Below, piece by piece: positions 3,810 through 54,184 of a stretch of DNA of 64,000 nucleotides; the first letter of the stretch is position 1; every line of letters starts with the position of its first letter. The DNA lies in the NCBI GenBank assembly GCA_020630575.1, contig JAHDBD010000004.1, forward strand, positions 124,001-188,000. Direction: 5' to 3'. The notes under the pieces were generated by a model. It searched no databases and was not told the DNA's origin. It was given only the letters and a program-made list of their open reading frames with translations. The stretch comes from Bernardetia sp. (GTDB lineage Bacteria > Bacteroidota > Bacteroidia > Cytophagales > Bernardetiaceae). Made by a program: the position numbers and the translations under genes.

Positions 3810-5042
3810 ATGAATTTTACATCTCAACTTTTAGAAAACTATTCTCTCTACAAAGAAAGATTACTTATATATAGACATTTTCAGCCTGAAGTGTTTAATC
3901 AAGTTTTATTTGATACAATAAAAAAGCAAAACTCTAATTTTGAACTAAAAAAGTTAGGAGAATCTGCCCAAAAGCGACCTGTTTATCATCTTACTTTTGG
4001 AAAAGGAAAAACACCTGTTTTGCTATGGTCGCAAATGCATGGAAACGAACCGACAGCAACCATGGCACTTTTAGATATTTTTCATTTCTTAGAAAATCCA
4101 ATAACAGATGAAGATAAAAAGTTAGTAGAAATACTCAAAAGTCATTTTACACTGCATTTTGTTCCTGTTCTAAATCCTGATGGAACAGCACTTTTTACAC
4201 GTAGAACAGCTCAAGGAATTGATATGAATAGAGATTTTCTTCAACGACAAACACCAGAAGCAAATTTACTCATAGACTTGGCAGCAAAAGTACAACCTCA
4301 TTTTAGCTTTAATTTGCATGACCAACGCTCAAAATATTCTGTTGGTAAAAATCCAGTACCGACCACTCTTGCTTTTCTTGCACCTGCTTTTGATAAAGAA
4401 ACAACTATTAAAAAAGAAGGAATGCGACGTTTAGAAGCAATGCAAGTAATTTCTTTAATGGTGGAAGGATTAGAAAAAGAACTAGGAGGGAAAATGGCAA
4501 AATATGACGATGAATTCGAACCTCGTGCTTTTGGAGATGGCTTTCAGAAATTAGGCTACGGAACAATTTTGATAGAATCGGGACATTATCCAAACGATTG
4601 GGAAAAACAAGAAGTTAGAAAGTACAATTATGTTTCTATTTTGAATGGGCTTTTGTCAGTTGCAAATAATTTACACAAAGACAAATCAATAGAAGCTTAC
4701 GAAAAATTACCTCTAAATGGAACACAATTTTATGATGTAATTCTGAGAAATGTAGAAATAGAATTTCCTCAGTTTGTAAAATTCAGAGCAGATATAGCTT
4801 TTGAAAGACATTCTAAATTTGATACAAAAGAACATCAATATCTTTTCAAAAGTGAAATAGTTGATATTGGAGATTTATCCACCTTTTACGGACACGAAGA
4901 ACATAATTTTGAAAATTATGCTCTTGTAATGCAAAGTGAAAAAATAGCACTTGAAAGTAATCCAAATTTAGTATTTGAAAATATAGAAAATCCACAAAAG
5001 CGTTTTGTTGTTTTGAATGGTGTGGTTTCTGGATTGATATAG
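3810..5042 (+). CDS. M14-family zinc carboxypeptidase
   Basis: Predicted metallocarboxypeptidase of family M14. The zinc ligands fit the family pattern: H77 and E80 in SQMHGNEPTA, and H170 in FSFNLHDQ. N140-R141 in DMNRDF is the usual substrate-carboxylate-binding pair, and E256 in ILIESGHY is a good candidate for the catalytic glutamate. The length of 410 aa includes an extra C-terminal domain of about 130 residues that I cannot assign. I see no convincing signal peptide, so the enzyme is probably cytoplasmic and may act on peptidoglycan-derived or other peptides, as several Bacteroidota M14 enzymes are thought to do. It is followed 108 bases later by the MSEP-CTERM gene on the same strand, perhaps in one transcription unit. 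Confidence 0.88.
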   Translation: MNFTSQLLENYSLYKERLLIYRHFQPEVFNQVLFDTIKKQNSNFELKKLGESAQKRPVYHLTFGKGKTPVLLWSQMHGNEPTATMALLDIFHFLENPITDEDKKLVEILKSHFTLHFVPVLNPDGTALFTRRTAQGIDMNRDFLQRQTPEANLLIDLAAKVQPHFSFNLHDQRSKYSVGKNPVPTTLAFLAPAFDKETTIKKEGMRRLEAMQVISLMVEGLEKELGGKMAKYDDEFEPRAFGDGFQKLGYGTILIESGHYPNDWEKQEVRKYNYVSILNGLLSVANNLHKDKSIEAYEKLPLNGTQFYDVILRNVEIEFPQFVKFRADIAFERHSKFDTKEHQYLFKSEIVDIGDLSTFYGHEEHNFENYALVMQSEKIALESNPNLVFENIENPQKRFVVLNGVVSGLI

Positions 5043-50652: not shown

Positions 50653-51098
50653 TATATAAAAACTTACAAAATAAGATTTTTTTTGTATTTTTGCGTTCTA
50701 CTACTACCCAATTACTACTTTTATGTTCTTCTTAACAAATCTAAAATTAAACTCTTTTTAGATTATTGACAGACTTATTTCATTTTTTTATGAATTTGTG
50801 CTGCACTTTTGTTTCTATCTTCGTACCAGATATGATTCAATTTATAATCAAAATTAATTCTTTAGAGAAAAAAAACTACGAATAAAAATCTATCCCATTC
50901 ATTTTCAACAATTTACACTAGCAATGAGTTAAGTTAGTATAGATTTTGTATTAGAATAAAGTTAGACTAATTAGTTTATCTTAAGTAAATAAATATAATT
51001 ATTTAAAGAAAAGTAATAGTATCGATTAAGTGAGCTAATTTATTTTGGCTATTTTAATTTTTCGTGCAACCATTTTATACTCACTGTGGGTCTTTTAT
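50653..51098. other. Promoter-side region of the ECF sigma operon
   Basis: 446 AT-rich bases without a supported ORF. A TATTTTTG box at 50696-50703 fits TAnnTTTG, but no -33 is evident and the distance to the gene would leave a 390-base leader. An auto-regulated ECF promoter is expected here; I cannot identify it by eye. Confidence 0.35.
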
Positions 51099-51782
51099 AT
51101 GAGTGAATTTCCTTTTATGTCAAACATTTCTGAACATAACGGAAGTCAATCCATTGAAAATGTTGAAAATCAACAAGAAAATCAGGAACTAGATAATGAG
51201 AATACGACTACTCGTACTGCTCATATTCCTTCTTCTGAAGAATCTCAACTTATCAATGATTGCATCAAGGGCAAACGTCAGGCGCAACGTACTCTGTACG
51301 AACAATTTGCTCCCAAGATGTATGCTATCGCAATGCGTTATGCCAAAACGACACTAGAAGCTGATGATATTTTGCAAGAATCTTTTATCAATGTTTTCAA
51401 ACATATAGATAGTTTTGCACAAGATTGTCCAATAGAATTTTGGATTCGTAGGATTGTTGTCAATCAAGCACTCAAAACAGGTAGAAACAAGTATGATAAA
51501 GCCTTCAAAGAAGAAGTAACAGATGTAAATTATAATTCAGAAGAAAATATAATTTTAGATCAATTTGACTTAGAGGAACTTTTACAAATCATTCGTAGAC
51601 TGCCTGATGGTTTTCAGCAAATTTTCAACTTGTATGCTATTGAAGGATACAAACATAAAGAAATTGCAGAACTATTAGGAATCAGTGTAGGAACATCGAA
51701 ATCACAGTACGCACGAGCAAGAGCACAATTACAAGAAATGCTCTTGAAAGAAGATGAAAGCTATGAACAACTTCGGAACTAA
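51099..51782 (+). CDS. ECF-type RNA polymerase sigma factor
   Basis: Alternative sigma factor, 227 aa from the ATG at 51099 (an ATG at 51117 is equally possible; a TTG at 51045 adds hydrophobic residues that do not fit). An acidic N-terminal extension of about 40 residues (NVENQQENQELDNENTTT) precedes region 2 (YEQFAPKMYAIAMRYA, then EADDILQESFINVFKHIDSF). Region 4 carries LPDGFQQIFNLYAIEGYKHK, then EIAELLGISVGTSKSQYARA. Its last 29 bases overlap the next gene, so the two are translationally coupled and form a sigma/anti-sigma pair. Confidence 0.92.
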   Translation: MSEFPFMSNISEHNGSQSIENVENQQENQELDNENTTTRTAHIPSSEESQLINDCIKGKRQAQRTLYEQFAPKMYAIAMRYAKTTLEADDILQESFINVFKHIDSFAQDCPIEFWIRRIVVNQALKTGRNKYDKAFKEEVTDVNYNSEENIILDQFDLEELLQIIRRLPDGFQQIFNLYAIEGYKHKEIAELLGISVGTSKSQYARARAQLQEMLLKEDESYEQLRN

Positions 51783-53241
51783 TAACCGAAAGCAGTTGGA
51801 GGAGCAATTTAAGAACAAATTCGAAAATGCTCAATTTAGTCCACCTGCTCACTTATGGGAACAAATAGATGCAGCTTTAGATGCAAAGCCTTGGTACAAA
51901 CGTCCTTTATTTTATTGGACTTCTGGGCTAGTGGCAGCACTCCTATTGGTGGTTATGTTTTGGTTTACGCTAGTTTATGATAATTCAAATACGCCTTCAA
52001 ACAACGATGTTGCAAATTCTGATAAAATTGAAAATACTCAAAATAATATAGATAATAATACAGAAAATTCTTCTTCTTCAAAGAATGAAGGAATTCGTAC
52101 TATTCAAACGCCTAATGATACAGCTTTTGGTAATGTAGAAGCAAATAATCCAACTCAAAAAACTGAACGGGTTAGTAAATCTGATACAAAAAAAATACAT
52201 TCTAATTCTTCTCACAAAAATAATTCTGATAAAAACTCTACTTTCTCACAAAATACTTCTACAAACACAAGTAAAGAAAATACTGATGTAGCTATTTCTA
52301 TTTCCTTAAATGATAAAAACAAGAATAAAAATGAGGATTTAGATACAAATAATAATTTGGATGACGTAATTGCAGAAGCAAATGATACACTAGAACTTGT
52401 TGTCTTAAAAGAAATTGATTGGTCAAAATATTTACCTGTTGGAAATCCTTACTTTGAAAAAGAAGTTATTCTAAAAATGGATAGTACAAATGAAGCTATT
52501 GCAAGTAATCAAGAGAGTGAGAACCCAACAGAAAATATAAAAAAATCATCTGGAATAGCCATCACTTTTGGTATTAATCATACCCAAGGAGTTTATAAAC
52601 CTTCTTTCAGAACTGATTCTCTCTATTCTGGACTTACTGTTATTGAGGCGTATAACTCAAACCTTGCTGACACGCTTCCACAGATGAATATTGGTGGAAC
52701 TTATCAACAAACAGGTTTTGATGTCGCTCTACAGTTTGGGAAAAATCAGCACTGGAGCTTGAATATAGGAGTAGGAATGGGTAAAGCTAATTATTCTTTT
52801 GGTTCTACCAACTATACTTTAGTTGGAGGAGGAATTCAAGGAGACCAAATAGTTCCCCATTACAACACTCAAGTAGAAGTAAATTATGAGTGGATGCAAG
52901 TTCCGATAGCAATTGGTTATCAATTTGGAAGAAGTAAAGCTAAAAAATTTAGTGGTTTTGCACAACTTGGAACTGCCATAGAATTTTTAACTAGCTATTC
53001 TTATACAAGTGCTGACCCACAATTTACTTATGCTTTAGGTACTCACAGAACTACAAATACACACGTTTGGACACAAGCAGGTGTTAATTATCACATTACA
53101 AACCGTTGGACACTTTGGGGAGGAGGAACATATAAATCTTCGCTCTCTTCACTAATAAATGAAAATGGAGTTACTTTTTCTTCACAGGCTTACGGCTGGC
53201 AAGTAGGAACTCGTTTTACAATTTTTAAGAGTGGAAAATAA
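51754..53241 (+). CDS. Predicted dual-membrane-spanning anti-sigma factor (Dma-like)
   Basis: A 495-aa protein whose layout reaches across the envelope. Residues 1-50 are a cytoplasmic anti-sigma-like helix pair (QFSPPAHLWEQIDAALDAKP); one TM helix is at 53-75 (FYWTSGLVAALLLVVMFWFT). Residues 76-260 are Asn/Ser/Asp/Lys-rich and look disordered (periplasm). Residues about 265-495 form an outer-membrane barrel with alternating aromatic strands (NIGVGMGKANYSFGSTNY, then VNYEWMQVPIAIGYQFGR, then AYGWQVGTRFTIF). This is the architecture of the Dma anti-sigma family described in Bacteroides thetaiotaomicron, where it controls vesicle production. It overlaps the ECF sigma gene by 29 bases. A cleaved signal is absent, which fits the dual-membrane model. 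Confidence 0.75.
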   Translation: MKAMNNFGTNNRKQLEEQFKNKFENAQFSPPAHLWEQIDAALDAKPWYKRPLFYWTSGLVAALLLVVMFWFTLVYDNSNTPSNNDVANSDKIENTQNNIDNNTENSSSSKNEGIRTIQTPNDTAFGNVEANNPTQKTERVSKSDTKKIHSNSSHKNNSDKNSTFSQNTSTNTSKENTDVAISISLNDKNKNKNEDLDTNNNLDDVIAEANDTLELVVLKEIDWSKYLPVGNPYFEKEVILKMDSTNEAIASNQESENPTENIKKSSGIAITFGINHTQGVYKPSFRTDSLYSGLTVIEAYNSNLADTLPQMNIGGTYQQTGFDVALQFGKNQHWSLNIGVGMGKANYSFGSTNYTLVGGGIQGDQIVPHYNTQVEVNYEWMQVPIAIGYQFGRSKAKKFSGFAQLGTAIEFLTSYSYTSADPQFTYALGTHRTTNTHVWTQAGVNYHITNRWTLWGGGTYKSSLSSLINENGVTFSSQAYGWQVGTRFTIFKSGK

Positions 53242-53248
53242 AAAAAAA

Positions 53249-53290
53249 AATAACTGGTTCAAGCGTCGACGCTTGAACCAGTTATTTTTT
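53249..53290. terminator. Bidirectional perfect-palindrome terminator
   Basis: The perfect inverted repeat aataactggttcaagcg / cgcttgaaccagttatt is flanked by A and T tracts and sits between the converging anti-sigma and dienelactone hydrolase genes. It is unusually GC-rich in the stem for this genome. Confidence 0.85.
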
Positions 53291-54184
53291 TTAATACCAA
53301 TTCTTTTTCAAGAACTGTATCGTTTTCTTACGAGATTCTTTAGCTGCCGTTTCATTATAAGCTGGTGAACTAGGATTTGCAAAAGCATGGTCTGCTTCAT
53401 ATCCTAAAATAGTGATTGTTTTACCAGCTTCTTTCATTGACTTTTCAAATTCCTTCATTACTTCTGGTGTAATCCATTTGTCTTTATTAGCATAGATTCC
53501 CAAAACAGGTGATTTAATTGTCTTTATTCTTTCCATATCTTTTTCAGGCATTCCGTAATACATAACGGTTGCTTTTGTATATTCATTTGAGATAATAGAA
53601 CCTTGTAGTGACCAACCACCACCAAAACACCAACCAATTGTAGCAATTTCTAAAGGTGCGCTTGCATCTTCAATAGCTTTTTCTTTAGCATGTTTTGTCA
53701 CAGCTTCAATAATTGAAGTTGCACGAGCATTGTCCATTCCTTGCATATATTTTTGAGCATCTTCTCGTGTTGTGGCAACCTTTCCATCATACAAATCAAT
53801 AGCAATTACGTTTACTTTTTTTCCAAAATTTTCGTAGTATTTTTCTACTTCTTTTTTCACATAATCATTAAGTCCCCACCATTCGTGAAAAACAAATAAA
53901 TATTTTCCTGTTGGTTTTTTGGCCTGTACCATAAAAACATTGGCAGCTTCGCCATCTTCTACTGCTATTTCTGACATTTTGCCATATTGAGGAGTAAAAT
54001 CAAATGCAATAGGATTTGGATGTTTGTTTACAAATTCTTTATCTGTTGTAAATTTAGCAAACTCATCAACAGCACAACATGCTTTATTTCCTGATTCAGA
54101 ATCATTGAATAACAAAAAATAAGAACCTATTCCTGTAAAAACAGCAATAAGTGATAGAAAGATATAATTTTTTGAGAATAACAT
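53291..54184 (-). CDS. Dienelactone hydrolase family protein
   Basis: Alpha/beta-hydrolase of the dienelactone hydrolase family, 297 aa. A single N-terminal hydrophobic segment (NYIFLSLIAVFTGIGSYFLL) anchors or exports it. The catalytic Cys is in IGWCFGGGW, and Asp and His are likely in GIYANKDKW and EADHAFANPS, the order of DLH enzymes. It also has an HEWWGLNDY block near the oxyanion region. Substrate is unknown; in Bacteroidota these often act on lactones or carboxylic esters. It converges on the anti-sigma gene with a shared terminator. Confidence 0.88.
   Translation of the reverse strand: MLFSKNYIFLSLIAVFTGIGSYFLLFNDSESGNKACCAVDEFAKFTTDKEFVNKHPNPIAFDFTPQYGKMSEIAVEDGEAANVFMVQAKKPTGKYLFVFHEWWGLNDYVKKEVEKYYENFGKKVNVIAIDLYDGKVATTREDAQKYMQGMDNARATSIIEAVTKHAKEKAIEDASAPLEIATIGWCFGGGWSLQGSIISNEYTKATVMYYGMPEKDMERIKTIKSPVLGIYANKDKWITPEVMKEFEKSMKEAGKTITILGYEADHAFANPSSPAYNETAAKESRKKTIQFLKKNWY

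Follow-up and report, generated by a model that had tools for sequence, protein, structure and literature searches.

An ECF sigma factor gene and an overlapping gene for a Dma-like, predicted barrel-bearing anti-sigma factor in Bernardetia sp.

The overlapping gene pair and its predicted products

The 64,000-nucleotide stretch of Bernardetia sp. DNA analyzed here (the window) contains, on its forward strand, an ECF sigma factor gene that overlaps a gene encoding a Dma-like anti-sigma factor. The features of this locus, with the evidence for each in parentheses, are as follows.

51065..51092, + strand: ECF-type promoter TGCAACC-N16-GGGTC (-35 / -10), predicted autoregulatory (conservation, motif counts)
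51099..51782, + strand: ECF sigma factor gene, 227 aa, alternative start at 51117 (Pfam)
51754..53241, + strand: Dma-like anti-sigma gene, 495 aa (ORF, orthologues, AlphaFold2)
51754..51903, + strand: residues 1-50, predicted cytosolic anti-sigma domain (alignment, hhalign)
51904..51981, + strand: residues 51-76, inner-membrane helix (hydropathy, AlphaFold2)
51982..52545, + strand: residues 77-264, disordered Asn/Ser/Thr/Lys/Asp/Glu-rich tether (pLDDT, congener identity)
52546..53238, + strand: residues 265-495, predicted eight-stranded outer-membrane beta-barrel (AlphaFold2, Foldseek, weak Pfam match)
53244..53291, no strand assigned: inverted repeat with a 20-bp stem and T tract, probable terminator (terminator scan)

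The sigma factor matched the Pfam models Sigma70_r2 (1.9e-11) and Sigma70_r4_2 (7.7e-16), and its gene overlaps that of the anti-sigma factor by 29 nt (51754-51782); the coordinates of both genes, the overlap, and the order of domains are all as given in an earlier note made from the sequence of this DNA. In-frame Met codons downstream of both starts, at 51117 (sigma) and 51763 (anti-sigma), offer alternative starts, and use of the latter would leave an overlap of 20 nt, the same as in one congener (L031). We noted that the sigma N terminus (window 51099-51240) carries an ~45-residue low-complexity extension that is missing in other genera. Because the probable terminator, which is common to the pair and to a convergent gene (53291-54184), lies right after the anti-sigma stop codon, the operon most likely consists of just these two genes.

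The first 50 residues of the anti-sigma protein form a conserved helical N terminus that is homologous to those of other sigma-paired proteins, and an alignment of relatives revealed Glu-16, Pro-30, Trp-35, and Ile-38 to be invariant. This segment matched no Pfam model and was modeled with low confidence (pLDDT about 50-60) by AlphaFold2, for which the anti-sigma alone was used with a 12-sequence alignment as input. A hydropathy peak of 2.3 at residue 56 and the AlphaFold2 helix at residues 51-76 indicate a single transmembrane helix after the N-terminal domain. Beyond it, pLDDT stays below 50 over residues 75-264. The earlier note had described a long low-complexity region here, which holds, and had put its size at ~185 residues, which we correct to about 188; 67% of these are N, S, T, K, D, or E, and none is cysteine. 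The C-terminal barrel that had been proposed was indeed returned by AlphaFold2, as eight long strands over residues 269-492 with pLDDT in this block mostly above 90. Foldseek searches of the PDB gave top matches to the barrel that were nearly all outer-membrane barrels (OmpT, OmpW, NspA, and OmpA), and Pfam detected it weakly (OMP_b-brl_2, E 3.4e-4, 21.2 bits, under the 27-bit cut-off). Compared with congeners, identity is 89-96% over the N terminus and transmembrane helix and 74-82% over the barrel, but only 31-60%, with many gaps, over the linker, and such low identity between conserved ends fits the role of a tether.

Fused and split relatives

The whole pair, including the overlap of its genes, is kept in 4/5 other genomes of the genus at 61-72% identity, with the sigma factor 84-88% identical among congeners, and a full-length profile matched 54 of 247 genomes drawn from the phylum. 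Its retention in the genus and recurrence across the class indicate that the pair is not due to chance. We read 63 sigma loci across the class. At 37 of these the next gene encodes a protein of ~420-640 aa with a barrel (the fused form), and at the remaining 26 it encodes a short anti-sigma of ~225-330 aa (the split form), where short forms were picked by length from the profile matches and intermediate lengths (~330-400 aa) were mostly left out. In every split case (26/26), the gene after the short anti-sigma encodes a separate secreted barrel protein, with a signal peptide-like start and an outer-membrane barrel-like end. OMP_b-brl_2 was matched by 13/26 of these split partners at E ≤ 1e-3 and by 21/38 fused proteins (the 37 plus L277), and no barrel family was among those listed for the 19 neighbors scanned downstream of fused genes. 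The anti-sigma is thus either fused to a barrel or encoded directly before one, which implies that the barrel functionally belongs to the pair; this pattern, independent of experiment, suggests that anti-sigma and barrel work together.

The N termini of fused and split anti-sigma proteins are homologous (hhalign 97.4%, E 1.5e-11), and homology between fused and split barrels was undetectable by the same method (1.8%), for which reason we do not claim a common origin of the barrels. The sigma tree contains three changes between fused and split labels (2-3 in bootstraps); a single change is also possible, and the tree is weak evidence on the number of events. The genome from which the window derives holds four pairs, namely the one described here, two fused pairs (L077 and L079), and one split pair (L076). 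In the split pair (L076 1552-4302), the sigma gene is followed by that of a 328-aa barrel-less anti-sigma and an overlapping secreted-barrel gene; for the product of the latter, AlphaFold2 predicted an eight-strand barrel with confidence, together with a signal helix and a small alpha/beta domain.

Some further loci deserve mention. L077 1324-3307 and L079 1968-3995 mark the two additional fused sigma/anti-sigma-barrel pairs of the window's genome. In two genomes of one genus (L035 7781-9376 and L037 7980-9584), the N terminus of the anti-sigma protein apparently contains three copies of the P..W..I anti-sigma motif before the transmembrane helix. Further, at L278 2360-5206, an ECF sigma gene is followed by that of a 771-aa anti-sigma-like protein with a transmembrane helix and a C terminus resembling a T9SS sorting tail.

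The promoter, its predicted regulon, and two candidate small RNAs

Within the upstream region, conservation in five genomes is highest immediately ahead of the sigma gene, and TGCAACC-N16-GGGTC is present with identical spacing in 5/5 genus genomes that hold the pair. Because the motif ends 6 nt before the ATG at 51099, the mRNA may be leaderless or may start at the ATG at 51117. The motif was found once in the window, compared with 0.01 occurrences expected from shuffles. Genome-wide, we counted 6, 6, 9, 7, and 4 sites in five genus genomes (32 in total), against 1 site in total for a reversed-pattern control over the same genomes. Related genera of the window's clade have the same elements at 15-16-nt spacing. 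The split systems keep a GCAACC -35 element with a -10 element that is mostly NCATC or NCGTC, and some site of this kind was detected in 23/26. Flavobacterial fused genes had no such site within the region scanned. From the common -35 element and the different -10 elements of the split systems, we predict that paralogues are insulated from each other. A search for the regulon of the split sigma with a GCATC -10 element yielded hardly anything except the promoter of that sigma gene itself and one probably coding match. In Flavobacterium psychrophilum, SM6 promoters have been described with a CGT -10 box, and a sigma/anti-sigma pair is among them (PMC9723704). Upstream of the fused pair L077, we noted GCAGCAC...GCGTA, which resembles the site before the L277 pair and perhaps represents a third promoter class.

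The recurrent predicted targets of the motif are the pair's own operon, an Omp85-like outer-membrane protein, lipoproteins, T9SS-sorted proteins, and two non-coding transcripts. That the promoter is conserved and common to this regulon supports the prediction that the pair induces itself. The outer-membrane protein (507 aa) was judged Omp85-like by eye and from a weak ShlB/FhaC match and had no sequence match in the PDB; in G007, from a different genus of this family, a relative of it sits behind the same site. The genes predicted as further targets encode a lipoprotein-like protein of 126 aa and a T9SS-sorted protein of 850 aa, to which other genus genomes add a lipoprotein-like protein of roughly 1150 aa. 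In a distant family (G012), sites precede small lipoproteins and a lipoprotein that looks by eye to be of FKBP type. We considered the 126-aa protein as a NigD candidate and rejected it, as neither Pfam nor NCBIfam gave a NigD match. A further genome of the genus (G005) keeps several of the regulon promoter sites, including both of those before the RNAs, and we did not find the anti-sigma gene in its 460-contig assembly, which reflects either an assembly gap or a loss.

Two of the motif sites precede no credible reading frame and define the following RNA candidates in the window's genome (promoter motif and terminator in each case).

L198 4334-4523, contig C57, - strand: RNA D candidate, ~190 nt
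L199 about 4384-4484, contig C64, - strand: RNA E candidate, ~95 nt

Both end in a stem-plus-T terminator and are conserved as transcript-like units: RNA D has equivalents in four genomes, with 92% conservation compared with 82% upstream, and RNA E has equivalents in six, with 91% compared with 60% upstream. In RNA D, nearly all of the 59 predicted base pairs are kept, with one compensatory change; no compensatory change was seen in RNA E. Small non-ATG reading frames inside the two RNAs are not conserved throughout. Rfam gave no credible family match for either RNA and none for the window, and a search with perfect 12-nt matches for targets of RNA E returned no conserved site besides RNA E itself. 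In another family, this promoter is again followed by parts of RNA E (CAAACTTACAACCTAAC). We also noted RNA E-like sequence behind the motif and upstream of a response regulator-like gene at three loci of another family (L270, L272, and L269).

A predicted mechanism, its alternatives, and related systems

The best explanation of these observations, which we consider probable, is that the pair constitutes a self-inducing two-gene operon for sigma-E-like signaling of outer-membrane state. The N-terminal domain of the anti-sigma would hold the sigma factor on the cytoplasmic side of the inner membrane, and the same chain would cross this membrane once, traverse the periplasm as a disordered tether, and finish in the outer membrane as a barrel of eight strands. 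Disturbance of barrel assembly, or of the outer membrane around the barrel, would lead to inactivation of the anti-sigma, either by proteolysis or by a change relayed through the tether, and free the sigma factor. The latter would then transcribe its own operon from TGCAACC-N16-GGGTC together with a small envelope regulon, comprising the Omp85-like outer-membrane protein, lipoproteins, T9SS-sorted surface proteins, and the two non-coding RNAs. Points against this reading are the low confidence of the N-terminal model and the presence of regulon sites in G005, where we did not find the anti-sigma gene. By analogy, we favor outer-membrane assembly state as the likely signal because in the best-studied relative, EcfO-Reo of Phocaeicola vulgatus, the sigma gene is up 33-fold with an envelope-active toxin and reacts to a BamA inhibitor as well (PMC9308784). 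A bolder reading, which we regard as possible but somewhat doubtful, is that such systems are the Bacteroidota counterpart of sigma-E, in which a one-chain regulator (two-chain in the split paralogues) reads the state of an outer-membrane barrel, synthesis of envelope proteins is adjusted by two small RNAs under the control of the sigma factor, and paralogues are kept apart by their -10 elements under a common -35 element.

The earlier note had extended the likeness to Dma to control of vesiculation, and production of outer-membrane vesicles as the main output would be in keeping with the shared architecture and paired sigma factor of the Bacteroides thetaiotaomicron proteins, given that dma1 and dma2 deletions hypervesiculate (PMC13088901). 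However, Dma1 and Dma2 affect vesicles via different cascades (PMC13088901), the predicted regulon proteins that we tested contained no match to the NigD family, and vesicles may arise as a side effect when an envelope response is deregulated; we consider a vesicle output unlikely and do not carry this part of the note forward. Less likely still is that the barrel recognizes a particular external ligand, a glycan or another molecule, and does not monitor outer-membrane assembly. Glycan sensing has been proposed for Dma2 (PMC13088901), but the ORFs read next to the pair include none of a transport, SusCD, or otherwise PUL-like kind, and the predicted regulon consists of envelope and surface proteins rather than a catabolic set.

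Two other alternatives concern the integrity of the protein. The barrel might be cut off constitutively after insertion, which would leave a separate outer-membrane protein and an ordinary inner-membrane anti-sigma, with the fusion serving only for co-expression. The split systems, in which anti-sigma and barrel come from separate genes in all 26 short forms, indicate that a continuous chain is not essential. Nevertheless, all orthologues have a single open frame, the long tether is kept despite its drift in sequence, and by eye we saw no AXA-like motif after the transmembrane helix, where the earlier note had named a signal peptidase site as a finding that would refute its reading; the anti-sigma has no cysteine, so a lipobox is impossible. 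We regard constitutive cleavage as improbable. Finally, it is very improbable that the barrel is never inserted and that the C-terminal domain, misfolded or secreted, has no role: although the Pfam score of the window protein is weak, the barrel model is confident, its structural matches are outer-membrane barrels, and its identity in congeners far exceeds that of the tether.

The predicted architecture of the pair matches that of systems already described, and we conclude that the pair is real and belongs to the Dma / EcfO-Reo kind. The Dma-like reading of the earlier note is borne out by architecture, gene order, and family: Dma1 (BT_4721, with Das1, BT_4720), Dma2 (BT_1558, with Das2, BT_1559), and Dma3 of B. 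thetaiotaomicron likewise combine an adjoining ECF sigma factor with an anti-sigma that has an N-terminal domain, a transmembrane helix, a long disordered tether, and a C-terminal barrel (PMC13088901). The present pair differs in its Cytophagales host, its TGCAACC-N16-GGGTC promoter, and a predicted regulon that has no NigD match but includes two small RNAs besides an Omp85-like protein. Similarly, the Reo anti-sigma of P. vulgatus and Bacteroides fragilis has been described as crossing all compartments, its outer-membrane barrel chain reaching from cytoplasm to surface, with strong induction of the sigma factor when the system is on and a proposed role in sensing outer-membrane stress (PMC9308784, PMC13114119); the Reo regulon, however, includes three NigD surface lipoproteins, and we recognized none here. 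Relatedness to Dma1/2/3 and Reo is drawn from these published descriptions, from gene order, and from a homologous fused pair in a genome that we infer to be of Bacteroidales, which has a strong Bacteroidales-1 RNA match.

The earlier note had also called the system under-described. This no longer applies to the architecture, as Dma1/2/3 and EcfO-Reo have been published in Bacteroides and Phocaeicola. Within the literature that we searched, outside which the founding Dma paper lay, it does hold for the branch in Cytophagales, for the split form, and for a regulon that includes small RNAs: neither a split arrangement nor small RNAs driven by the ECF sigma factor were described there for these systems. 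Added here are a regulon predicted for the pair, its two candidate RNAs included, the pattern of fused and split forms, and the prediction that the promoters of paralogues are insulated from one another. How outer-membrane damage is sensed in Bacteroidota is an open question for which Dma/Reo proteins are leading candidates, and work on their regulons and signals has so far been confined to gut species. With a sharp promoter code from an environmental lineage, which points to individual targets and among them two candidate small RNAs, the question can be put to the test in reporter assays.

In Escherichia coli, RpoE-RseA (sigma-E) provides the outer-membrane assembly response, with an autoregulated ECF sigma factor and a regulon that includes outer-membrane assembly proteins and small RNAs. 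Predicted autoregulation, an outer-membrane assembly-type protein, and small RNAs in the predicted regulon are points of likeness here. RseA, however, has no barrel, and DegS senses the status of the outer membrane through free OMP C termini, whereas the window anti-sigma has a predicted barrel of its own. FecI-FecR-FecA also combines an ECF sigma factor, an inner-membrane regulator, and an outer-membrane barrel. The window pair differs from it in that the anti-sigma gave no FecR match in Pfam or NCBIfam at E ≤ 1, Pfam found no FecR, STN, or TonB-dependent receptor domain in either protein of the pair, and the barrel is predicted to be eight-stranded. The split form resembles the Fec system in having the barrel separate from the anti-sigma, and, as it is made of two pieces, it could be used to map how anti-sigma and barrel contact each other.
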